Shown: positions 20,412 through 54,262 of the stretch, piece after piece
How the letters are laid out: each line of letters begins with the position of its first letter
Numbering within the stretch: position 1 is the first letter of the stretch
Source: Archangium violaceum
GTDB taxonomy: Bacteria; Myxococcota; Myxococcia; Myxococcales; Myxococcaceae
Direction of reading: 5' to 3'
Assembly: GCF_016887565.1 (NCBI RefSeq)
Contig: NZ_CP069396.1
Location: 1,639,001 to 1,703,000, forward strand
Length of the DNA: 64,000 bases
Made by a program: the position numbers and the translations under genes
Notes under the pieces: generated by a model
Seen by the model: the letters and a program-made list of their open reading frames with translations, nothing else
Database searches by the model: none
What the model was told of the DNA's origin: nothing

Positions 20412-23369
<2,958 letters not shown>

Positions 23370-28083: not shown

Positions 28084-29460
28084 CTAGTTGCCGCCGCCGC
28101 GAGCCTTCGTCTCCCCGATGGGGATGGGGAACTCCGTGTGGACGCGGTGCCCCGAGACGTCGAGCGGCAGCTCGGTCAGCTTCCCGTAGCGGCGCATGTC
28201 GATCCACCGGTGCCCGCCCTCGAAGAGCAGCGAGTAGCGGCGCTGCTTGAGCAGCTCGGCCACCAGGAGGTCCTTGCTGAGCTCCTCGGTGATGGGCGCC
28301 AGCTTGCCGGAGTTGACGCGGATGAGGTTGATGTCCGCCAGGGCTTCCGGGAGTTTGTCGCTCTGGATGTAGGCCTCGGCCCGCAGGAGGATGAGCTCCT
28401 CGTTGCGGATGATGGGCAGCTTCGAGACGGCCTCCGGGTAGTGCGCGAAGACCTGGTCGGACTCGACGCCCTGCCACCTGCGCACCTCCTTGGCCTTCTT
28501 CACCTTGCGGCCCACGCGGGCATCCGGCGTCGTCCCGTCCGCCTGCTTCTCGGCGCCCGCGGCGATGGACGGGTGCACGAAGATGTCGGCGTCGTTGAGC
28601 TGGTTCTGCGTGTCGCCCGAGCCCGTCCCGAAGGCGTGGTAGACGCCCAGGTCGAGCAGCTTGGGGTCGGCGGCGATGCCGTCGTCGATGAACGAGTCGT
28701 TCAGGTCGGTCAGCGCCTGGGGCCAGTCCTTCCGGTACACGTCCACCCGCGCCTTCACCGCGCGGTTGAACTTGATGAAGGTGTCGGGCTTGCCGAAGCC
28801 TTCGAACCCGCTGCTCAGCGGGAAGGGGAACGTGTCCCCGGCGGCCAGCAGGTGCGCCCTGGCCTGGTCGAGCAGCCCGGCGATGTGCTCCAGCACCTTC
28901 TCCTTGGACTCGATGGGCGGCAGGGGCTCACCGAGCTTGCGGTTCACGTCGATGGGCGCGCCATTGGTGTCACGGGTGTTGATGACGACCAGGAAGTCCA
29001 GGGCCTGGATCGTCTTGGCGAAGCCGCGGATGGCCTCCTTCTCCGCATCGGTGACGCCCGTCACCTTGTCCACCGCGTTGAGCAGCGTGTTGGCGTCACG
29101 GATGCTGGCGTAGGGGTTGGTCCAGAAGCTGCCACCGAAGGCGGGGCTGCCCGGATCCAACCCGCTGCCGGCCAGCATCTCGCTGATGTAGCGCGGGTCC
29201 GCGGTGTCCATCACGTACGCCTCGCGGCCGAGCACGCCGAGCAGGGCCACGTAGCCGTTCTGGGTGGCCATGCCGGTGCGGGTGTCGACGAGCAGACCCG
29301 TGGCGGCGGCCATGACGCCCGAGCGCGTCGGGGTCTCCTCGAGCGACTCGACGCTCGGACGGTTCAGGTCCGGCACCTCGAGGTCGCATCCGCCCAGCCC
29401 CAGCGTGGCGCACAGGGCCAGGGCCACCTTCGTCGTCTTCTTCATGTTGCGGATCTTCAT
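28084..29460 (-). CDS. SusD/RagB-type nutrient-binding lipoprotein
   Basis: 458 residues. The start (29460) uses an AAGGA site that overlaps the end of the susC-like gene, 6 bases upstream. The signal ends LGLGGC. The body is TPR-like and helical, with SusD-family landmarks: an early DLNRPSVESL, ANTLLNAVDKVTG, IRGFAKTIQALDFLVVI, RNEELILLRAEAYIQ and a late RRYSLLFEGGHRWIDMRRYG that matches the family's C-terminal signature. SusD proteins sit on the outer membrane and pass glycans or peptides to a SusC channel. Such pairs are the hallmark of Bacteroidota and are rarer in myxobacteria. No glycoside hydrolase gene is adjacent; the nearest secreted enzyme is the convergent M28 peptidase. Confidence 0.9.
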   Translation of the reverse strand: MKIRNMKKTTKVALALCATLGLGGCDLEVPDLNRPSVESLEETPTRSGVMAAATGLLVDTRTGMATQNGYVALLGVLGREAYVMDTADPRYISEMLAGSGLDPGSPAFGGSFWTNPYASIRDANTLLNAVDKVTGVTDAEKEAIRGFAKTIQALDFLVVINTRDTNGAPIDVNRKLGEPLPPIESKEKVLEHIAGLLDQARAHLLAAGDTFPFPLSSGFEGFGKPDTFIKFNRAVKARVDVYRKDWPQALTDLNDSFIDDGIAADPKLLDLGVYHAFGTGSGDTQNQLNDADIFVHPSIAAGAEKQADGTTPDARVGRKVKKAKEVRRWQGVESDQVFAHYPEAVSKLPIIRNEELILLRAEAYIQSDKLPEALADINLIRVNSGKLAPITEELSKDLLVAELLKQRRYSLLFEGGHRWIDMRRYGKLTELPLDVSGHRVHTEFPIPIGETKARGGGN

Positions 29461-29466
29461 GGTCCT

Positions 29467-32502
<3,036 letters not shown>

Positions 32503-32829
32503 TCGCTCTTCACCTCTATTGCGGATGGAGCGGCCCCCCTGGGAAAGGGCTGCCGTTGGGCGCAGATCGTCTGTGGGCAGGGGGACTACAGTCAACGTTG
32601 CTTATCCGATTCAAAACGGCCTACGATGAGGGCCTCTTTTCGATGGCGCGGGAATTTTCGGCTGACGTTCACGCTGTGACGCCCTGAGTGCGTATCCCGT
32701 TGCTCCCCCAAGGATCGTTTTCGCCTGGAGTGCGAACGGCCGGAGGAGCCCGCCACGCGCATGGGTCGGGTTGGCGAGCGGCGAGCGGGCTCCATCTTTG
32801 GCCTGTCACGCTTTCGAGAGGAGAGGCTC
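32503..32829. other. Divergent intergenic region, susC-like / Gln-rich lipoprotein
   Basis: 327 bases with no supported gene. It must carry promoters for both directions. An AT-richer patch lies near 32595-32660. I found no convincing -35/-10 pair or long repeat. Confidence 0.5.
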
Positions 32830-43413: not shown

Positions 43414-45143
43414 GCTTCGGCTTCCCCTGGGGACTGCTGGCGCTGGGCGCGCTGGTGCCGCTGGTGGCGGCGTACTTCCTCCGGCGCAAGCAGAAGCCGG
43501 TGGTGGTGAGCGCCCTCTTCCTCTGGCGCACCCCCAGCCCTCGCGCCGAGGCCGGCCCGCGCTTCGAACGCTTCACCCGCGAGGCCTCGCTGCTGCTGGA
43601 GGCGCTGGCGGTGGTGGCCGCGGCCCTCTTCCTCGCCGACGTGCGCCTGGGCGAGGACGCCCGGACGCGCCACCTGGTGCTGGTGGTGGATGGGAGCCTC
43701 TCCCTGTCCGCGCGCGGGCCCGACGCTCGCCCCGTGCTGGAGAAGGTTCGCCAGGAGGCTGCCCGGCGCGTGGAGGAGGAGAAGGCCACCCACGTGACGG
43801 TGCTCGTCAGTGGCTCGGTGCCGCGCGTGCTGGCTGGACCCGAGGCGGAGCCCTCGCGGGCCCTGGCCTCGCTGGAGTCCTTCCGCGCCCTCGGAGCGGA
43901 CCACGACGTGGCGCCCACGCTGCTGTGGGCCCAGGAGCTCGCCGGCCCGGGCAGGCGCGTGCACTTCTTCACCGATGCCCCTCCCACGCAAGGTCTGGCC
44001 GTGCCCACGGCGGTGCGGTGGACGGCCCTGGGCGCGCCTCGGGACAACGTGGCGCTGGTGTCCGCCTGGCGCCGGGACGAGGGCTCCACGGCCACGGTGA
44101 CGCTGCGGGTGGCGCGCTTCGGCGCGGAGCCTGGGGAGACGGAGGTGCGCGTGGTGGCCCGGCCCGGCCCGGGCGCGAAGGAGGGCACTGAGCGCCGCGA
44201 GCGGGTGGCGCTGCCCGAGGAGGGCGCGGCCACGCTGCGTCTCACCTTCGAGAATGCGGGAGACGTAGAGGTATCCCTGCCTCCGGACGCGCTGCCGGAG
44301 GACGGTGAGGCCCGGCTCCCTCCCGCCCCGGAGCGACGGGTACGCGTGGCGCTAGCGGAGGGCCTGGAGGCGCCAACGCGCTCGGCCCTGGAGCGCTTCC
44401 TCTCGGTGGCGCCCGAGGTGGAGCAGGGGCCCGGTGAGGGGGCGCTCGTGCTCGGCCCTCGGGGCACGGACGCCGGGGTGACGGTGGGCGCGAGCGGCAA
44501 CGTGCGCACCTTCGTGGGCCCCTTCTTCGCGGAGAAGGGACACCCGTTGTTGGATGACGTGCAGCTGGGCGGCGTGCGCTGGGCCGCTGGCAGCGAGGCG
44601 CCTCCGGGCCGGCCGCTGATGACCGCGGGCGACGTGGTGCTCCTCTCCGAGGAGGAGGGCCACCTGCACCTCAACGTGGACCTCTCGCGCTCCAACGTGC
44701 AGCGCACCCCCGCGTGGCCCGTGCTGCTGGGCAACATGCTGCGCGAGGCCCGGCGCGCGAAGGAGGGTTTTCCCCGGCGGCAGCTCTCCCTCGGCGAGCC
44801 CCTGGCGGTGGTGACGCGGGCGGGTGCGCGCTACTCGCTGCAGGGCCCGGACGGAGGCCGTCCCCTCGTGGGCGCGGGGGCGCTGAGCCTGCCTCCACCC
44901 GCGGTGCCCGGGCGCTACGTGCTGGAGCGAGAGGGCGAGCCGGTGGACGCGGTGGAGGTGCTCGCGCTGGATGCCCGCGAGTCGGACCTGCGCGGGCGCG
45001 GCGAGGGGGACAGGCCCGCCGAGGCCGAGGGAGATGACGACGGGGGGGCCGCTTCTCCCGGCCGGGCACGCTGGCCGCTGCTGGTGCTGCTGGCCGCGCT
45101 GCTCGCGGACTTCCACCTCACCAGGCGCACGGACGTGAAATGA
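43410..45143 (+). CDS. BatA-like VWA membrane protein
   Basis: 577 residues. The N-terminus matches the BatA/aerotolerance leader: a membrane helix in GFPWGLLALGALVPLVAAYF followed by RRKQKPVVVSALFLWR, then a second helix (ASLLLEALAVVAAALFLA). A VWA domain with an intact-looking metal site (DGSLSLS) follows. The middle is beta-rich and the C-terminus ends in a helix (WPLLVLLAALLADFHL). BatA-type proteins sit in the inner membrane with the VWA domain outside. It is the last gene of the operon; REP-like repeats follow. Confidence 0.85.
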   Translation: MSFGFPWGLLALGALVPLVAAYFLRRKQKPVVVSALFLWRTPSPRAEAGPRFERFTREASLLLEALAVVAAALFLADVRLGEDARTRHLVLVVDGSLSLSARGPDARPVLEKVRQEAARRVEEEKATHVTVLVSGSVPRVLAGPEAEPSRALASLESFRALGADHDVAPTLLWAQELAGPGRRVHFFTDAPPTQGLAVPTAVRWTALGAPRDNVALVSAWRRDEGSTATVTLRVARFGAEPGETEVRVVARPGPGAKEGTERRERVALPEEGAATLRLTFENAGDVEVSLPPDALPEDGEARLPPAPERRVRVALAEGLEAPTRSALERFLSVAPEVEQGPGEGALVLGPRGTDAGVTVGASGNVRTFVGPFFAEKGHPLLDDVQLGGVRWAAGSEAPPGRPLMTAGDVVLLSEEEGHLHLNVDLSRSNVQRTPAWPVLLGNMLREARRAKEGFPRRQLSLGEPLAVVTRAGARYSLQGPDGGRPLVGAGALSLPPPAVPGRYVLEREGEPVDAVEVLALDARESDLRGRGEGDRPAEAEGDDDGGAASPGRARWPLLVLLAALLADFHLTRRTDVK

Positions 45144-45158
45144 GAGGGTTGCGCATGC

Positions 45159-45278
45159 TCCCTCTCCCCCTGGGAGAGGGCGGGGGGTGAGGGTAGTCGC
45201 CTCCGTGTTCAGATTCCCGTGTGGACCTCGGGATGGGGAAATACCCTCACCCTAGCCCTCTCCCAGAGGGAGAGGGGA
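45159..45278. repeat. Pair of inverted REP-like repeats between convergent operons
   Basis: Two 37-base units, 45159-45195 and 45242-45278, are near-perfect reverse complements. Each contains its own hairpin (CCCTCTCCC..GGGAGAGGG) followed by GGGGTGAGGG. This is the widespread CCCTCTCCC/GGGAGAGGG repeat type found between genes in many proteobacteria. The pair forms a long stem with a 46-base loop and could act as a two-way terminator for the converging operons. Confidence 0.85.
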
Positions 45279-45300
45279 CATACACGGCGGACACTCTTCA

Positions 45301-46323
45301 TCAGGTGCTCGTCCCGGGCTCGAGGAGCGACTCCACCGCTTCCTTCGCCCGCTCGAAGCGCTCGTCCCATGAGCCGCTCAGCTTCACGTAGCGCCGGCCC
45401 CTCGAACGCAGGGCGTTCTCGCAGCGCTCCAGGAACGAGATTCGCTCGTTCGGCAGGTACCGCACCGGGTCCGCCACCCACGGCACGTCCACGTCCGTCA
45501 GCAGGTAGAGGTCATAGTCGCGCCGCTCCGCTTCCTGGCGGATGAACTCCGGACATTCCCCGAAGAACACCTCGCTCCAGATCGTCGTCGTCAGCACGTC
45601 GGTGTCACAGATGATCACCCGGTTCGCGCCGCGCACCAGCGCGTCCTCCGCCGCCACCTGCCCGCGCGCGATGCGCGTCATGTCCGCCAGCTCCATCTTG
45701 TCGGGACCCTTGTGCTCCAGCAGGATCCGCGCGTACTCGGGCACCATCACCGTCTCGAAGTGCTCCGCCAGCCGCTTCGTCAGCGTCGACTTCCCCGTCG
45801 ACTCCGGGCCGAAGACGCACACCCGCCGCGCGAAGTAGGGCCGCACGCACCTCGGCAGGTAGCGCCAGTGTGTCCACGGATCATTGCGGATCGCCGTTCC
45901 GCTCACCGGCACCGCTCCCCGCGCGATGTCCACCGGGACGAACTCGGCTCCCAACACCTCCGCCAGCTTCGCGCCGTACTCCTCCGAGGCGAACACGTAG
46001 TCCGGTTTCACCGGCAGCACCCGCTGCAGACTGTCCCGCCAGATGTCCCAGAATTGGGGGTGCTCATGGGGATACTGCGGGTTCTCGTCCGTCAGGTGCA
46101 CCACCCGCACGTCGGGGAAGAGCTCGCGCATCCACTCGTAGCGCAGCTCCCCCGGGATGGGCTCGGCCTTCAGCGTGCCCACCACCACCGTCAGGTCCTT
46201 CACGTACTCGCGCGCGAAGTCGACCAGGAAGACGTGCCCCAGGTGCGGCGGCATGAACTTCCCGAGGACCATGCCCGTCCCCTGGCGGGCCCCCCCCGCG
46301 ACTCGAATGCTCTTCGTGCTCAT
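45301..46323 (-). CDS. nadR: NadR-like NMN adenylyltransferase / nicotinamide riboside kinase
   Basis: 340 residues, two enzyme domains and no DNA-binding domain. The N-terminal nucleotidyltransferase (about 15-160) has GKFMPPHLGH (21-30, with the HxGH core) and the late SGTAIR (141-146) site. The C-terminal kinase (about 165-335) has Walker A GPESTGKST (172-180), DTDVLTTTIWSEVFFG and DVPWVADPVRYLPNER, as in NadR. The expected reactions are nicotinamide riboside to NMN and NMN to NAD. Its start overlaps the stop of an NRPS-like reductase gene (ATGA), an unusual setting; it may supply cofactor locally or have been given another substrate. Confidence 0.9.
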   Translation of the reverse strand: MSTKSIRVAGGARQGTGMVLGKFMPPHLGHVFLVDFAREYVKDLTVVVGTLKAEPIPGELRYEWMRELFPDVRVVHLTDENPQYPHEHPQFWDIWRDSLQRVLPVKPDYVFASEEYGAKLAEVLGAEFVPVDIARGAVPVSGTAIRNDPWTHWRYLPRCVRPYFARRVCVFGPESTGKSTLTKRLAEHFETVMVPEYARILLEHKGPDKMELADMTRIARGQVAAEDALVRGANRVIICDTDVLTTTIWSEVFFGECPEFIRQEAERRDYDLYLLTDVDVPWVADPVRYLPNERISFLERCENALRSRGRRYVKLSGSWDERFERAKEAVESLLEPGTST

Positions 46324-49300
46324 GGTGTGCTCTCTGCTCGCCCGAACGTATATCGGAGATAGGTGTGCAGCAGTGCCTCGGTGACCGGCGGGCACTCGAG
46401 CCCCGAGCCCGTCAGCCCCGCGCGCGCGTGCTCCATGCCGAACTCCGCCCCCGTCGCCTGGAAGAGATCCATCGTCCGGTGCCGCTCGAAGGCTCCTCCG
46501 GACAGCCCCCGGCAGAGCGCCAGGTACGCGGCGGCCTCCGCCGAGTCCCCTCCCTCCCGGGAGAGCCCGGCGAGCCGCGCCCGCCACTCCTCCTCCGAGA
46601 CGGTGGCGAGGGGGATTCCGAAGGAGCGCAGGGCCTCCACCAGCACGGGCAGCGACAGCGGCCGGGGATTGGCCAGGTGGAAGGTGCGCGAGGGCTCCGG
46701 TGGTGTCGCGTGCAGGGACAGGTGCGCCACCGCCGCCGCCGCGTGGTCCACGGGCGTGACGTCCACCGCCAGCCCTTCACCCGCGCCGCGTGGCACGCAA
46801 CCGAGCGAGGCCACCCCGCGGAAGAACAGGGACAGGAAGTCGGTGGGAGAGGCGTGCCCCGTTCGCGTGTCCCCCGTGATGAGGCCGAGCCGGTAGTACG
46901 TGATGGGCCCCGCCTCGCCCCGGGCGGAGCGCAGGAGGTGCTCGGCGGCCCACTTCGTCTGCGCATAGCCGCCGAAGACACGCTGGGGTCCGCGCAGCTC
47001 GTCCGTCTCCTCCAGCCGCCCCGTGTTCCTGTCCGTGGACACGAACACCGAGAGCGTGGAGATGTGATGCAGCGACTTGCGCCTTCCCTCGGCCAGCAGA
47101 CGAAGCACCTGCTCCGTGCCTCCGACGTTCGCCTCGCGCAGCGCGTGGTACGGGAGCACCATGTTGACCTGGGCCGCGCAGTGGTAGACGTGGCCCACCT
47201 CGCGGGTGAGCCGCTCCCACTCGCGCTCCCCCAGCCCCCACCGAGGGCGTGTCACGTCTCCCCGGATCGCCACCAGGCGCGCGGTCTCGTCCCGCGATGC
47301 CGGGGTGCCTCGTGTCTCCAGGGCGCGCAGCAGCCGCTCCCGGGCGTCCTGGTCATCCCGGCCTCGGACGAGGCAGCGCAGCCGGGCCCCGGTACGTCGC
47401 AGCAGCTCGTGGAGCAGCCGCGCGCCGAAGAAGCCCGTGGCTCCCGTGAGCAGGAGGTCTTCATCGGGAGGTGCCTCGGGCCGCTCCCGCGCCGCACGCA
47501 GGAGTGGTTCCCACTCGGGCCCCAGCGCGACGTCCGCGCGCAGCTCCTCCGCGCTCATGCCTCCGTCCTCGGCGGGCCCTGGATCGTCCGCCTCCAGGTG
47601 GGCCAGCAGCTCGGCGATGGTCGGGTGTTGGAGCATCGCCACCGGCCGCAGCGGCAGCCCGTGGGCCTCGGCCGCCGCGACGACCTTGAGCACCCCGAGC
47701 GAATCTCCACCCAGCGCAAAGAAGTCGTCCGTCACTCCCACGGGCTCCACGCCCAGGACCCGCTCCCAGAGCTCGCACAGCAGTTGCTCCCGCTCGGTGG
47801 TGGGAGGCACCGTGTCTCGCGACTCGCGTCGCGCCGTGAGTGGCAGGCGTGAGAGCGCTTCGAAGTCCACCTTCCCCGTCACTGTGCGGGGCAGGCGCTC
47901 CAGCGGCTCGAAGCGCTGCGGCAGCATCCATCGGGGCAGCACGCCCGCGAGGTGCGCGCGCAGTGTCTCCGGAGTCGGGGCCTCCCCAGTGGCTCGTGGC
48001 ACCACGTACGCCACCAGCACGGGGCGCGCCGTGTCTCCCTCCGCCCCGAGCGAGCGCTGGAGGACCGCCGCGTCCTGGAGGCCCGGATGGCGCAGCAGAT
48101 GCGCCTCCACTTCCTCCGGCTCGATGCGCAGGCCCCGCAGCTTGAGCTGGCGATCCACCCGGCCGAGGAACTCCACTTCCCCCTCCGCGTCCTCCACCAC
48201 GCGGTCTCCCGTCCGGTACAGGCGTTCCCCGCCGCGCTCGATGAAGCGGGCCGCCGTGAGCTCGGGACGGTTCACGTACCCGCGCGCCAACCCCACTCCT
48301 CCGAGGTAGAGCTCACCGGGAGTGCCCGGCGGCACGGGCTCGCCCCGCTCATCGAGCACGTGCCAGTACATGTTGGGAATCGGCCGGCCGAGCAGCGGGC
48401 GCGTCCACGTCTCCGGATCGCACGCGCAGAGGCTGGTGCAGATGGTGGCCTCGGTGGGGCCGTAGACATTCACCACGCGCAGGTGCCGCGCCCAGAGCCG
48501 CACCCGCTCGGGAGGACAGGGCTCGCCTCCAATGACGAGCACGCGCAGGGTCGGGGGCCGTGCCTCCGGCTCGAAGACCCGCAGGAGTGACGGGGGCAGG
48601 TCCGCGTGCGTGATGCGCCACCCGGCCAGCAGCGACATCAGCCCGGGCCCGGGTTGGAGCGCGTGTGCGGGGGGGAGGCAGAGCGTCGCGCCGGATAGGA
48701 GCGCCGTGCCGATGTCGGACAGCGAGGCGTCGAAGCTCGTCGACAGGTAGAGGATGGCGCGGCTCGTCTCATCGAGCGCGAAGGCTCGGATCTGCGCGCG
48801 CAGCAGGTTGACCAGCCCCGTGTGCGGCACGAGCACGCCCTTGGGCGTCCCCGTCGTCCCCGAGGTGTAGATGACGTAGGCCAGGTCATCGGGACGCGGT
48901 GGCTCGCCCGGAGCCTCGTCGGTGGGGGCGCGCTCCGGGACATCCTCGAGCAGGACGACACGGGCCTCCACGCCCTCGAATTGGGGCTCCGCGCCTCGAC
49001 GCGCCAGCACCAGCCGGAGCCCGCAGTCGCGCGCCATGAAGCCGAGCCTCGCGGCGGGCAGCGTGGGCTCCAGCGGCACGAACGCCGCTCCCGCGCACCA
49101 CACCCCGAGCAGGGCGATGACGTACTCGGGGGACTTTTCGATGAACAGCCCGATGATGTGCTCGGGCCCGGCACCGAGCCGCCGCAGGTGCGCCCCGAGC
49201 ACGGTGGCCCGATGGAGCAGCTCCGCGTAGGTGACTCTGGTGTTCTCCGACTCCAGTGCCACCCGGTGCGGGTGCGCGGCGGCGATGGCGCGAAAGTGCT

Positions 49301-49328
49301 CCAGGAAGGTGCCGGCGGGCGGGCTCAG
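46320..49328 (-). CDS. Single-module NRPS-like protein: adenylation-carrier-reductase (A-T-R)
   Basis: About 1002 residues. Adenylation domain (1-495): TSGTTGTPKG at 155-164, VYGPTEAT, YRTGD, GRVDRQLKLRG and catalytic Lys486. D200 in FDAS matches the Asp that binds an alpha-amino group, so an amino acid substrate is likely. A carrier domain (about 510-580) has its attachment Ser543 in GGDSL. A terminal reductase (about 622-1002) has GATGFFG and Tyr788/Lys792 (YAQTK), which would release the acid as an aldehyde or alcohol. There is no condensation domain. No ATG, GTG or TTG occurs at the natural start: the frame emerges at ATC-CTG (49331-49326), overlapping the dioxygenase stop. Start set at CTG 49328; a -1 frameshift fusion is the alternative. 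Confidence 0.8.
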   Translation of the reverse strand: MSPPAGTFLEHFRAIAAAHPHRVALESENTRVTYAELLHRATVLGAHLRRLGAGPEHIIGLFIEKSPEYVIALLGVWCAGAAFVPLEPTLPAARLGFMARDCGLRLVLARRGAEPQFEGVEARVVLLEDVPERAPTDEAPGEPPRPDDLAYVIYTSGTTGTPKGVLVPHTGLVNLLRAQIRAFALDETSRAILYLSTSFDASLSDIGTALLSGATLCLPPAHALQPGPGLMSLLAGWRITHADLPPSLLRVFEPEARPPTLRVLVIGGEPCPPERVRLWARHLRVVNVYGPTEATICTSLCACDPETWTRPLLGRPIPNMYWHVLDERGEPVPPGTPGELYLGGVGLARGYVNRPELTAARFIERGGERLYRTGDRVVEDAEGEVEFLGRVDRQLKLRGLRIEPEEVEAHLLRHPGLQDAAVLQRSLGAEGDTARPVLVAYVVPRATGEAPTPETLRAHLAGVLPRWMLPQRFEPLERLPRTVTGKVDFEALSRLPLTARRESRDTVPPTTEREQLLCELWERVLGVEPVGVTDDFFALGGDSLGVLKVVAAAEAHGLPLRPVAMLQHPTIAELLAHLEADDPGPAEDGGMSAEELRADVALGPEWEPLLRAARERPEAPPDEDLLLTGATGFFGARLLHELLRRTGARLRCLVRGRDDQDARERLLRALETRGTPASRDETARLVAIRGDVTRPRWGLGEREWERLTREVGHVYHCAAQVNMVLPYHALREANVGGTEQVLRLLAEGRRKSLHHISTLSVFVSTDRNTGRLEETDELRGPQRVFGGYAQTKWAAEHLLRSARGEAGPITYYRLGLITGDTRTGHASPTDFLSLFFRGVASLGCVPRGAGEGLAVDVTPVDHAAAAVAHLSLHATPPEPSRTFHLANPRPLSLPVLVEALRSFGIPLATVSEEEWRARLAGLSREGGDSAEAAAYLALCRGLSGGAFERHRTMDLFQATGAEFGMEHARAGLTGSGLECPPVTEALLHTYLRYTFGRAESTP

Positions 49329-50197
49329 GATGCGCCCCCAGCGGAGGCGGCGGCGGGAGGGAGGTAGTCCTCGAGCGCCGAGCCGGTCGAGCGGTTGTCC
49401 ACGTCGGGAGCGCCGAGGCCCCGGCGGTGGTCCTCGAGGTGGACGACGCGGAAGTCGACGCTGAAGCGCGTGCGCCCCGACGTGTGCGGGCGAGTGCCGT
49501 GCAGGTGCGCCGCGGAGAAGACGAGCACCTCGCCCGCCCGGCACGCGAAGCCGAGCTCCCGCAGCCCCTCGAGCGGGACGGTGGCCGTGGGGTACTCGGC
49601 GTTCGCCTTCCGCTTCGGGTTCTGCCACCCCGCCTGGGCCAGCCACGTCCGGTAGTCGAAGGCGGCGGAGGAGTTGGGCACCGGCCGCTCGAAGGCCTCG
49701 GGGTAGAAGGTGAAGGTCTCCTCCTCGGTGGCATCGTGGAGCGCGAGCCACCAGTTGAGCTGCGCTCGCGGGTTGGCGTACCAGGTGTCGCGATGGACGA
49801 AGTAGGCCGGAGCGGCGGCGGGTATCTCATGCCCCCGGTGCAGCACGCCGCGCAGCCGGGGCACGTCGACGGCGTACTCGCCCGGCTCCAGTCCCACCGC
49901 GGCCAGCACCGCACGCGCCCCCTGGTGCAGCCGCGCATCCCCGGCCAGGACGCGGCGCACGCGTCCCAGTCGTTCGAGGTGCTCGGCCGGAGGCAGGTGG
50001 AACTGTGCCTCGCGCGCATCTCCCACGTCCCGGAAGGTCTCCGCGAGCAGCCCGTTCACCTCGCGCGCCAGCCGTAACGACGCCTCATTGGGCGCGAGCT
50101 TGAAGAGGGTCCCTCCGTAGAGCGCCCGACGGAAGGACTCGGGGTCGGACGGTGGATTCGTCTGGATGAGGATGGGAGAGCGGGTGTCCGGGCTCAT
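49325..50197 (-). CDS. Fe(II)/2-oxoglutarate dioxygenase, phytanoyl-CoA hydroxylase-like
   Basis: 290 residues. The start at 50197 has AGGGAGCC upstream. The iron site is visible: HRD in YFVHRDTWYANPR and a distal His in HLHGTRPH, with the Arg for 2-oxoglutarate in GRTRFSVDFR. The fold resembles PhyH-type hydroxylases, common tailoring enzymes in natural product routes. Its gene ends in a TGA that overlaps the A-T-R reading frame; a GGGGG run lies 8 bases before the stop. In this locus it may hydroxylate the amino acid or aldehyde made by the A-T-R protein. Confidence 0.88.
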   Translation of the reverse strand: MSPDTRSPILIQTNPPSDPESFRRALYGGTLFKLAPNEASLRLAREVNGLLAETFRDVGDAREAQFHLPPAEHLERLGRVRRVLAGDARLHQGARAVLAAVGLEPGEYAVDVPRLRGVLHRGHEIPAAAPAYFVHRDTWYANPRAQLNWWLALHDATEEETFTFYPEAFERPVPNSSAAFDYRTWLAQAGWQNPKRKANAEYPTATVPLEGLRELGFACRAGEVLVFSAAHLHGTRPHTSGRTRFSVDFRVVHLEDHRRGLGAPDVDNRSTGSALEDYLPPAAASAGGAS

Positions 50198-50287: not shown

Positions 50288-53200
50288 CTACGGGTCGAGG
50301 GTTTCGCCCCAGCGCTGGCGGGCCAGCTCGAGGACTCGGGCGTTCTCGGGAACCCGCCGCAGGAAGCACTCGCGGACGGCGGCGTCGGGAATGTCACTGG
50401 CGCGGGCACGTACGCACCTCAGGGCGCCCCGCAGGGCTTCCTCTCCTTCGGCGGTGGCGCCCTCGGCGAAGCAGGACTCGGCCAGCACCTGGAGCAGGCC
50501 CACCTTGGCGATTCCCTCGTCACCTATTGCCTTCAGCTCCCGCAGCGCGAGCTCCAACCCGTGGCGGGCCTCGGCCGGGCGTCCCTGGGCGAGCAGGATC
50601 GTCCCCAGCAGCCAGCGAGCCAGGGCGACGAAAGGCCCGAAGGGAGCCAGGGTCTCGCACGCCAGGCGCGCCTGGGCCTCGGCCTCGGTGACGGCGTCTT
50701 CTTCCGCCATCAACCGCGCCAACACCAGCAGCGCGGAGCCCAGGTGCACCCGGTTGGGGATCCGCGCCTCCACCCACTCGAGTGCCAGGGCGCGGGCTTC
50801 CTCCTGGTGGGCCGGCTCGGGACTGGCCGCCAGCACCTGCATCAGGTTGTGCCGCGCATGCGTGATGCCGAAGAGCTGCCCCACCCGCGTCGCCACTTCC
50901 ATGCTCCGCCTCCCCAGTGCCATGGCTCCCTCGACGTCTCCGAGCGCCAGCAGCACCTGGGACTCCCATGAGAGGGCCGCCACCTCGTCGCGTTCCGAGC
51001 CGACCTCGCGGAAGGACTGGCAGGCCTTCCCGGTCCAGGTCAGCGCCTGCCAGGGTCCCCCCGTCAGGCACAGGGTGCGGAAGCCATGGATGACGCATCC
51101 CCAGCCGCGCACGATGGCGTCTCGGGTGATGAGCTCGGAGCCCGTGCGCTCCAGCCGCTCGAAGCTCTCGTCGGCCTCGGCGATGGCGCCCACGTAGCAC
51201 GTCATGCACCCCATGAAGCACAGCGCGAGGTGGTAGGCGCCTCGGGCCTCCGGCTCCGGCTCGGTGTCGAGCAACCGCCGGTGCAGGGCGAGCAGGTGCT
51301 CCTTCTGCCCGCTCTGGCCGTAGCCCAGGCACAGCCCGCTGATCAGATGGCTCCACCGGGCCTCGCCCGGCTTCAGCCTGGGCAGCACGGCGCTTCCCAC
51401 CTCGTGCAGGGTGGCGAAGTCGTCCATCCAGAAGGCCGCGGTGGCCCGCAGCGCATGCAGCCGCACCCGTGCCTCCTCGCCAGGACCAAGTCCCAGGGCC
51501 GCCTCCATGCACCGCTCCATGCCTTGCATGTCGTGGCGCTCGAAGAGCTGCTCGGCGGCTCGGGTGTAGAGGGGGATGGCGCGCTCGGGCTGTTGGCCCA
51601 ACGCGGCATGCTCGGCGAGCACTCGCGGGTCGCGCTCTCCCGCGTTCTCCAACCACGCTCCCGCCACCTGGTGCCCGAAGCGCTTGTGGTTGTCGGCTAC
51701 CAGCCCATGGGCCGCGTCCCGCACCAGCGCGTGGCGGAAGCGGTACTCGGCCTCGCCCGGGAAGCGGCTGTCCTGTTGCGGCTCCACCCATTCCAACTCC
51801 ACGAGTTGCCGGAGCTGTCCGTCCAGCTCCTCGGGGGTGCGCTTGTCGCCGAGCAGCGCGCGCACGCCGCTGGACCAGAAGGTGCGGCCGTAGATGCTGG
51901 CGGCCAGCAACACCCGACGCGCCTCGGGCTCCAGCCGCATCAGGCGAGCCTGGAGCATGGCCAGCACCGTCTCCGGCGCGCTGCCCCCGCGTCCCTCGGC
52001 CACCCCGCGGATGAGCTCCTCGAGGAAGAGGGCATTGCCCGCGGCCTGCTCGACGAGCTGGTGGATGACGGAGTCGGGCACGTCCGCGCCGAGCACCTCG
52101 CGCACCAGGCGGGCTCCCGCCTTTCGACTCAAGCCTCGCAGCGGCATCGGCTGCAGGCGCCTCGATGACAGGGAAGAGGCGAGGAGCTGATCGACCTCGG
52201 GCCGGGCCAGGGCCAGCACCATGAAGGGTTGCTCGGACAGCTCCCGCAGCGCCTCGTCCATCAGCCGGAGGGTGAGGAGATCGCCCCAGTGCAGATCCTC
52301 CAGCACCAGGAGCACCGGATGCCGGGCGCACTCGGCCTGGAGGAAGGATACCAGCGCCCGGCCAACCTGGGCGCTCATCAGCCGCGGATCCCCCCGCGCC
52401 GCGCGCAGGCGTGGGCTGTGTTCGTCGGAGAAGGGAATGCCACACAGCTCTCCGAGGAACTCGGCCACCTCCCGGGCCTGGGCCGCGGGCAGCTGCTGGC
52501 CGAGACGTTGGAGCAGCCGCCCCCGGCGGACCTCGAGCGGCTCCCCGCCGCAGAGGCCGCACAGCCGGCGCAAGGCCTGGGCGAGCAAACCATCCGCCGA
52601 GCCCGCGCTCATGGGGTCTCCACGGCCCAGCAGCACCAGGGGAGGCGGCTGGTGGCGCTCCAGGCGGCGGAGGAACTCGTGGCGGAGCCGGGACTTGCCG
52701 GCGCCAGCTGGAGCCGTCACCAGCACGGCCTGTGCGGTGGACTCCTCCACACAGCTGGTGAAGGTCAGGTCCAGCAGCGCCAGTTCCTGCTCGCGGCCCA
52801 CGCAGGGGGTGGGCTTGCCCAGGAGGGGGCGGGACTCGTCGGCGCCCGACTGCTCGCCCCTGAGCAGGAAGATGCCCGAGTCGTGCCGGGTGAGCAGGAA
52901 GCCGGGGCCGAGCAGCCCCGCCGTCACCTCGTCCAGCAGCACCGGAGTGGAGTCCGGGGGCAGCGACTCCACCTGGCGCAGCAGCAGGCCGGCGCGGTTC
53001 ATGGCCTCACCCACGGGCAGGTGTTGGTCCAGGGTGCCACGGCCAGTGGTGAGCACCACGGCGGCCTCCGGCCAGCGCTCCAGCAGGGAGAGGGCACAGC
53101 GGGCGGCGAGGGCGGCGGGATCCGTGGCGGAGCCGAGGGAGGCCACCAGGGTGAGCACGAGGGCCCCATCGGCCAGCAGCTCCACGCGGGCCCCCTGGGG

Positions 53201-54262
53201 GGCCAGCAGGGTGCGCAGGGAGTCACGCAGCGCCAGACGCGAGTCCTGCTGCCCCGGGGCATGCCCGGCGGTGGCGCGTGGAGCGGCCAGCATCACGGTG
53301 ACGAGCTGTTGCTCGGCATGGGTCAGGCAGGGCGGATGAGTGCCTTGGGGCACGGCGGCGCCAGGTCCCGCCTCCAACCGCGTCTGGAGGTCCTCCAGGG
53401 CGTTCATGAGGCTGGAGGCCTCTGGAGGCCTGCGCGCGGGCTCCTTGGCCAGCATGCGCCCGAGCAACTCCTGGAAGGCCGAGGGGAGCTGGGGACACAG
53501 CTCGCGCACGGGCACGGGCTCGGTGAAGAGAATCTTGGCCAGGGCGGCCATCAGGTGGGGCGCGGAGAAGGGGGGCCGGCCGGTGAGGCACTCGTAGAGG
53601 ACACAACCCAGGGAGAAGACGTCGGCGGCGGGGGTGAGCTGCCCCTGGCCCGACACCTGCTCCGGAGCCATGTAGCCCGGAGTGCCGAGCAACATCTGGC
53701 TGGCCGTCATCGCGGTGGAGGGCTGCACGTGACGGGCCAGGCCGAAGTCCAGCAGCACCACGTCCTCGGGGTGGGCATGGCGCAGGAAGAGGTTGGAAGG
53801 CTTGAGGTCGCGGTGGATGACGCCTTGCTGGTGGGCCGCGGCGAGGGCCTCGGTGGCGCGGCGGAGAAGGGCGAGCGTCTCGTGCAGGCGCAGCGGCTGG
53901 TGGGAGAGGCGCTGGGCGAGGGTCTCGCCCTCCAACCACTGCATGGCGAGGAAGGGCAGCCCCTGCTCGGAGTGGCCGTGCGCGACATGGGCGACGATGC
54001 CGGGGTGGCGCAGGGCGGAGAGCACCTCGGCCTCGCGGGTGAAGCGCCGAGGAGCATTGGCGTCGGAGGAGGGATGCAGCAGCTTGAGGGCCACGCGCTG
54101 GCCGGAGCGGGCGTCGGTGGCGCGATAGACGGTGCCCATGCCGCCGTGGCCCGCGAGAGCTTCCAGGGTGAAGCGGCCGGCGATGACGGTGCCCGCCGGC
54201 AACGAGGGGGCCAATGGCGCGGGTGGCTCGGCCGGTGCCTGGCCGATGGGGCGACTGTCCAT
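50288..54262 (-). CDS. Ser/Thr kinase fused to cyclase-like, AAA ATPase and TPR regions
   Basis: 1324 residues. Kinase (about 30-290): Gly loop GHGGMGTVY, Lys60, HRDLKPSN with D152, DFG with D172. Region 315-470 resembles a class III nucleotide cyclase or its relic (LADGALVLTLV, PVGEAMNRAGLLL, PVLLDEVTAGLL) without a visible metal-binding pair. Next is a large AAA ATPase (Walker A APAGAGKS, 517-524) and then about 500 residues of helical TPR-like repeats. There is no membrane span. Similar kinase-ATPase-TPR proteins act as cytosolic signal integrators and are sometimes found beside natural product genes. It is divergent from a sigma-54 activator and lies 90 bases before the dioxygenase gene. 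Confidence 0.9.
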   Translation of the reverse strand: MDSRPIGQAPAEPPAPLAPSLPAGTVIAGRFTLEALAGHGGMGTVYRATDARSGQRVALKLLHPSSDANAPRRFTREAEVLSALRHPGIVAHVAHGHSEQGLPFLAMQWLEGETLAQRLSHQPLRLHETLALLRRATEALAAAHQQGVIHRDLKPSNLFLRHAHPEDVVLLDFGLARHVQPSTAMTASQMLLGTPGYMAPEQVSGQGQLTPAADVFSLGCVLYECLTGRPPFSAPHLMAALAKILFTEPVPVRELCPQLPSAFQELLGRMLAKEPARRPPEASSLMNALEDLQTRLEAGPGAAVPQGTHPPCLTHAEQQLVTVMLAAPRATAGHAPGQQDSRLALRDSLRTLLAPQGARVELLADGALVLTLVASLGSATDPAALAARCALSLLERWPEAAVVLTTGRGTLDQHLPVGEAMNRAGLLLRQVESLPPDSTPVLLDEVTAGLLGPGFLLTRHDSGIFLLRGEQSGADESRPLLGKPTPCVGREQELALLDLTFTSCVEESTAQAVLVTAPAGAGKSRLRHEFLRRLERHQPPPLVLLGRGDPMSAGSADGLLAQALRRLCGLCGGEPLEVRRGRLLQRLGQQLPAAQAREVAEFLGELCGIPFSDEHSPRLRAARGDPRLMSAQVGRALVSFLQAECARHPVLLVLEDLHWGDLLTLRLMDEALRELSEQPFMVLALARPEVDQLLASSLSSRRLQPMPLRGLSRKAGARLVREVLGADVPDSVIHQLVEQAAGNALFLEELIRGVAEGRGGSAPETVLAMLQARLMRLEPEARRVLLAASIYGRTFWSSGVRALLGDKRTPEELDGQLRQLVELEWVEPQQDSRFPGEAEYRFRHALVRDAAHGLVADNHKRFGHQVAGAWLENAGERDPRVLAEHAALGQQPERAIPLYTRAAEQLFERHDMQGMERCMEAALGLGPGEEARVRLHALRATAAFWMDDFATLHEVGSAVLPRLKPGEARWSHLISGLCLGYGQSGQKEHLLALHRRLLDTEPEPEARGAYHLALCFMGCMTCYVGAIAEADESFERLERTGSELITRDAIVRGWGCVIHGFRTLCLTGGPWQALTWTGKACQSFREVGSERDEVAALSWESQVLLALGDVEGAMALGRRSMEVATRVGQLFGITHARHNLMQVLAASPEPAHQEEARALALEWVEARIPNRVHLGSALLVLARLMAEEDAVTEAEAQARLACETLAPFGPFVALARWLLGTILLAQGRPAEARHGLELALRELKAIGDEGIAKVGLLQVLAESCFAEGATAEGEEALRGALRCVRARASDIPDAAVRECFLRRVPENARVLELARQRWGETLDP

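Follow-up and report, generated by a model that had tools for sequence, protein, structure and literature searches.

A dioxygenase, A-T-R and NadR gene block of Archangium violaceum as candidate half of a six-gene biosynthetic pathway

Bifunctional NadR proteins, such as those of Haemophilus influenzae (1LW7) and Lactococcus lactis (PMC7221760), join an adenylyltransferase for nicotinamide mononucleotide (NMN), here called NMNAT, to a ribosylnicotinamide kinase. Nonribosomal peptide synthetases (NRPSs) with reductive release and single-module reductases, among them MxcG of myxochelin, AusA of aureusimine and the Lys2-type aminoadipate reductases, combine adenylation (A), carrier (T) and thioester reductase (R) domains. 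Here we describe a locus of Archangium violaceum in which both kinds of enzyme are encoded side by side. Within a stretch of 64,000 nucleotides (the window), the minus strand (50197-45301) carries tandem genes for a PhyH-type Fe(II)/2-oxoglutarate dioxygenase (PhyH), an NRPS-like A-T-R protein and a NadR-like protein. On balance, we favour reading them as half of a biosynthetic pathway that is conserved and horizontally mobile among distantly related bacteria and converts an amino acid into an aldehyde- or alcohol-type product; in this pathway NadR would serve through nicotinamide adenine dinucleotide (NAD). The individual enzymes are of known kinds; their combination is the new part.

A split cassette conserved over several phyla

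The three overlapping genes reported in a preliminary description of this DNA have correct coordinates, and profile matches confirm their families. The A-T-R and NadR genes are coupled by an ATGA overlap, as had been noted. At the junction of PhyH and A-T-R the sequence is CTGA, and CTGAGC spans the TGA stop codon of PhyH. Since no ATG or GTG lies in frame nearby, the sister species (locus L041, genome G045) keeps the CTGA, and ATGAGC stands at the equivalent position in L005, CTG is most likely the start codon of A-T-R. Compared with the sister species, the ratio of nonsynonymous to synonymous substitution rates (dN/dS) was 0.20 for PhyH, 0.19 for A-T-R and 0.09 for NadR, indicating purifying selection and therefore real genes.

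The preliminary description had treated the block as a three-gene system. The genes stood up to analysis but the limits did not: the conserved unit comprises six genes, namely MDR (a zinc dehydrogenase), AsnB (an asparagine-synthetase-like amidotransferase), MT (an S-adenosylmethionine methyltransferase), PhyH, A-T-R and NadR. The first cassettes were found by a scan with NadR only, and more were added by genome searches with PhyH and MDR alignments; MDR, AsnB and MT were recognised upstream by clustering of the neighbouring open reading frames. The hosts are Planctomycetes, Legionella, another gammaproteobacterium, an alphaproteobacterium, Eremiobacterota and Sandaracinaceae, and several of the loci are metagenome-assembled. 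Complete sets are present at L005, L010, L015, L016, L062 and L064, and in one genome on two contigs (L017 and L004). Four Eremiobacterota loci (L006, L011, L095, L096) carry the other five genes with PhyH not adjoining, and PhyH is present elsewhere in the genomes of L006 and L011; the contigs of L060, L061 and L008 cover shorter pieces of it. Gene junctions are mostly overlaps or short gaps, and NadR is present in 16 of 17 cassettes. The neighbourhood is thus not confined to this strain, a possibility that the preliminary description had left standing, and its proposal of a biosynthetic block with NadR as a long-term partner holds over several phyla.

In the Legionella and alphaproteobacterial cassettes (L008, L010, L016, L060) there is an extra protein of ~270 amino acids without a Pfam match, which in Legionella is encoded directly after NadR. 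PhyH homologues at L042 and L065-L071 were not counted as cassettes, as the rest of the gene set is missing there. The plasmid collection yielded no cassette: its NadRs were ordinary ones, and its PhyH homologues (in Aminobacter, P. mandelii and rhizobia) were distant and set in other gene neighbourhoods.

The window genome (G000) holds five of the six genes. Its MDR-AsnB pair lies about 1 Mb from the window (2683047-2685917), where a whole-genome search with the cassette AsnB alignment gave a strong match (2683062-2684978, 870 bits). The MDR has the unusual nucleotide-loop signature G-x-(N/G/S)-R-(I/L/F)-A-x-L that replaces GxGxxG in cassette MDRs. The sister genome carries the same pair. Among 145 genomes of the order, the cassette MDR (E 1e-60) occurs in two, which are exactly the two carriers of PhyH-A-T-R-NadR; both the MDR and this block are missing from four other species of the genus. 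The two unlinked loci thus share an identical narrow distribution. An MT orthologue was found in neither the window genome nor the sister genome, the best matches being short and generic. The absence of MT and the distance of MDR-AsnB could suggest that the cassette is decaying in this genome, with one gene gone and the others split. We think this very improbable, as the frames are long and open, the catalytic residues are kept, and all five genes, MDR and AsnB included, evolve under purifying selection (dN/dS 0.09-0.21), NadR being the slowest.

A second cassette-like AsnB (G000 2727545-2729485) was set aside. Its neighbours resemble genes for a ketosynthase, a cyclase and a carrier synthase, and its region (2725116-2738000; L084, L085) resembles a type II polyketide synthase cluster, as judged from sequence starts only.

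Predicted chemistry of the pathway enzymes

The A-T-R protein contains AMP-binding, PP-binding and NAD_binding_4/thioester reductase domains in one chain. In the window copy the carrier serine (LGGDSL) and the YxxxK reductase motif (YAQTK) are intact and the carrier domain is normal. The preliminary description had placed an Asp at residue 200; this is correct when counting from the CTG start, and the residue aligns with PheA Asp235, which makes an alpha-amino acid the likely substrate. Alignment with PheA gave DASDVGVICK for the ten specificity positions in the window, and all 12 A-T-Rs compared conform to DASD(V/I/L)G(V/I/S)(V/I)CK. Because the code is so tightly constrained across phyla, the cassette A domains probably accept a single substrate or a very narrow group. 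From general knowledge of such codes, we take the Asp at position 278 to point to a polar or cationic side chain; the code gives no firm substrate.

Carrier domains are degenerate or shortened in the Legionella and Eremiobacterota proteins. Pfam found no PP-binding domain in the A-T-Rs of L006 and L011 (L006:7668-10007, L011:7650-9989), where the carrier region is short, with DSL kept and the first helix apparently gone.

Like MxcG, AusA and the Lys2-type enzymes, the A-T-R has A, T and thioester reductase domains, an A domain of the alpha-amino acid type and an expected reductive release. MxcG and AusA are its nearest NCBIfam profiles, yet it scores far under their equivalog cut-offs (608.6 of 2300 bits for MxcG). 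It also differs from all three in being one module without a condensation domain, in its own conserved code, and in its coupling to NadR, AsnB, MDR and PhyH.

PhyH scores 24 bits with PF05721, for which the cut-off is 22. The putative iron ligands H135, D137 and H233, which form the HxD...H triad, and the 2-oxoglutarate-binding R244 are invariant in 15 homologues. Its predicted model (pLDDT 89.8) has PtlH as the nearest fold (Z 15.7), and shares fold (Z 12.9-15.7) and metal site with natural-product enzymes of the PhyH family (PtlH, proline hydroxylase H11, GriE), from which it differs with an identity of about 15%. A sequence search of the PDB found no relative, and the fold search returned general PhyH enzymes only, with no hint at a substrate. 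The cassette AsnB has a full-length class II glutaminase domain (Cys2) and a synthetase domain with the SGGxDS motif; both are shared with tailoring amidotransferases, the nearest solved structure being the 'hydroxyamidotransferase' 7ylz, whereas the partner enzymes differ.

In the proposed pathway, a single alpha-amino acid of polar or cationic character, or a derivative of it, would be activated by A-T-R and set free by the R domain as an aldehyde or alcohol. AsnB may install an amide or related nitrogen group, PhyH a hydroxyl group and MT a methyl group (the MT gene having been lost in the window genome), and MDR would carry out an alcohol/carbonyl redox step. The order of these reactions, for which the preliminary description had proposed hydroxylation, activation, reduction and then phosphorylation or adenylylation, may differ.

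NadR inside and outside the cassettes

The window NadR has both NMNAT and kinase domains with their catalytic motifs. It matches TIGR01526 with 315.8 bits, slightly under the equivalog cut-off of 341.15, and is best called NadR-like by descent and motifs. It has in common with the H. influenzae, L. lactis and closest non-cassette proteins (L002, L003, L007, L009) the two domains and the HxGH, SGTxIR, Walker A, DTD and lid residues, and differs from known bifunctional NadRs in having no helix-turn-helix domain and no adjoining pnuC, and in lying inside a biosynthetic operon.

PnuC is the nicotinamide riboside transporter. The closest non-cassette NadR genes adjoin pnuC, as do more distant ones (L012, L019-L021); PnuC was identified by eye from sequence and the neighbours were matched to that protein; one NadR homologue has an annotated pnuC beside it. 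This subfamily is therefore one of salvage enzymes. The window NadR is 51-62% identical to the four close pnuC-linked proteins. The 13 cassette NadRs compared share 69 invariant positions, those of the HxGH, Walker A and DTD motifs among them, and each of these residues is also found among the four. Given these relatives and shared residues, the cassette NadR probably still makes NMN and NAD. NadD is present in the window genome with a score above cut-off and a second NadR is not, answering a question that the preliminary description had posed; with NadD present, basal NAD synthesis does not depend on the window NadR.

The same kinship, and the intact catalytic residues, would fit a hitch-hiking or housekeeping salvage gene unlinked to the pathway. 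We consider this improbable: NadR follows A-T-R, usually overlapping it, in Planctomycetes, gammaproteobacteria, Eremiobacterota and the window genus, with no pnuC match at any cassette locus; few genomes of the order have it (9 of 145, with only two of these NadRs close to that of the window); and none of the other four genes evolves as slowly. We favour instead a NadR that keeps its ancestral chemistry, converting nicotinamide riboside through NMN into NAD, and would serve the pathway by supplying NAD, by a bypass that protects the NAD pools of the cell, or by making NMN or NAD that is consumed.

Several points weigh against this favoured account. The divergent Eremiobacterota cassette L097 holds the other five genes without an adjoining NadR; together with the window genome, which lacks MT, it shows that neither gene is indispensable. 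The two genomes in which the unlinked loci co-occur are close relatives, so that their co-occurrence is one evolutionary event. Cassette NadRs also show a few systematic differences: residue 200, Gly in the pnuC-linked proteins, is mostly Ile, Thr or Leu in cassettes, residue 287 changes from Gln to Val, and one lid Arg is lost in the Legionella, alphaproteobacterial and one Eremiobacterota NadR; these changes could reflect an altered kinase substrate.

The preliminary description had suggested that NadR modifies the product, and such a repurposed tailoring enzyme has to be weighed here. The kinase would phosphorylate the A-T-R alcohol or a derivative and the NMNAT would add AMP, giving an ADP-linked, NAD-like product. 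The direct coupling to A-T-R, the recurrence of NadR over several phyla, the changes at residues 200 and 287, and the lack of a recurring exporter gene in the neighbourhood clustering would all fit. So would the faster drift of the kinase, which further separates cassette NadRs from known ones: the NMNAT half is the better conserved in 70 of 78 cassette pairs, while the kinase half is so in five of six pairs of close pnuC-linked NadRs. It is, however, the NMNAT that would need to accept a new phosphate ester. The proposal is further weakened by the fact that every residue invariant in the cassette set is held in common with nicotinamide riboside salvage relatives, and by the cassette without NadR. 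We therefore treat tailoring as the main alternative, though rather unlikely overall, and favour supply, protection or use of NAD over adenylylation of the product; NMN/NAD chemistry is probably retained, with the kinase somewhat relaxed or altered. Taken more broadly, a pathway to a pyridine-nucleotide-like or ADP-linked molecule, whether NadR modifies an amino-acid-derived alcohol or NMN or NAD is built in, seems to us unlikely; if true, it would mean a new dinucleotide metabolite or cofactor spread over several phyla. The NadR tree resolves poorly whether the cassette proteins form one clade.

In L097 (6202-13833; G1148), a FAD amine-oxidase-like gene lies upstream of MDR and an HD-hydrolase-like gene after A-T-R; the A-domain pocket residues are the same, as judged by eye. 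In Mycobacterium szulgai / M. angelicum (L013:8583-10942, L014), a NadR gene of this subfamily has no pnuC at its side and overlaps one for a B12-binding radical SAM protein; the kinase lid segment of this NadR is lost, possibly reflecting another biosynthetic use of NadR.

Genomic context and significance

Table 1 Features of the window locus and the cassette-type MDR of the second locus (G000 denotes coordinates in the window genome; others are window positions).
Feature	Position	Strand	Remarks
PhyH-type Fe(II)/2-oxoglutarate dioxygenase	49325..50197	-	ATG start, 290 aa; H135, D137, H233 putative ligands, 2-oxoglutarate Arg244
A-T-R NRPS-like protein	46320..49328 (start approximate)	-	~1002 aa; probable CTG start
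A-T-R adenylation domain incl. C-terminal subdomain	47871..49292	-	code DASDVGVICK; limits converted from profile matches
A-T-R carrier (T) domain	47595..47783	-	ALGGDSLGVL
A-T-R thioester reductase (R) domain	46347..47450	-	GATGFFG and YAQTK motifs
NadR: NMN adenylyltransferase and ribosylnicotinamide kinase	45301..46323	-	ATG start, 340 aa
NadR NMNAT domain	45832..46278 (approximate limits)	-	HLGH, SGTAIR motifs
NadR kinase domain (AAA_28)	45346..45831 (approximate limits)	-	GPESTGKST Walker A, CDTD, lid DPVRYLP
Cassette-type MDR	G000 2684997-2685917		immediately upstream of AsnB, two-gene arrangement

Large Ser/Thr protein kinases fused to AAA/nSTAND domains are encoded on the minus strand at 50288-54262 and 20412-23369. 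The former gene precedes PhyH by 90 bp in the same orientation, and the two could be transcribed together. Between NadR and a BatA-like gene on the opposite strand there is a GC-rich stretch resembling an inverted repeat (45143-45301; ccctctccc...gggagaggg). Elsewhere in the window a SusD-like gene adjoins a TonB-dependent SusC-like receptor gene (28084-32595, minus strand).

No description of a NadR-linked NRPS/AsnB system was found in the open-access literature, and subscription papers or cluster databases may hold one; the six-gene pathway is apparently undescribed. The myxobacterial pyrazinone coralinone (PMC10979478) comes from an unrelated NRPS/polyketide synthase system.

An operon so small, kept over several phyla with a single predicted substrate and with NadR almost always present, would suggest an undescribed metabolite of general role, and such conservation points away from a strain-specific antibiotic. 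The complete six-gene copies are short and could be expressed as one unit. Action of NadR on the product, or consumption of NAD, would tie NRPS chemistry to pyridine nucleotides; a protective role of NadR would suggest that the product targets NAD synthesis.

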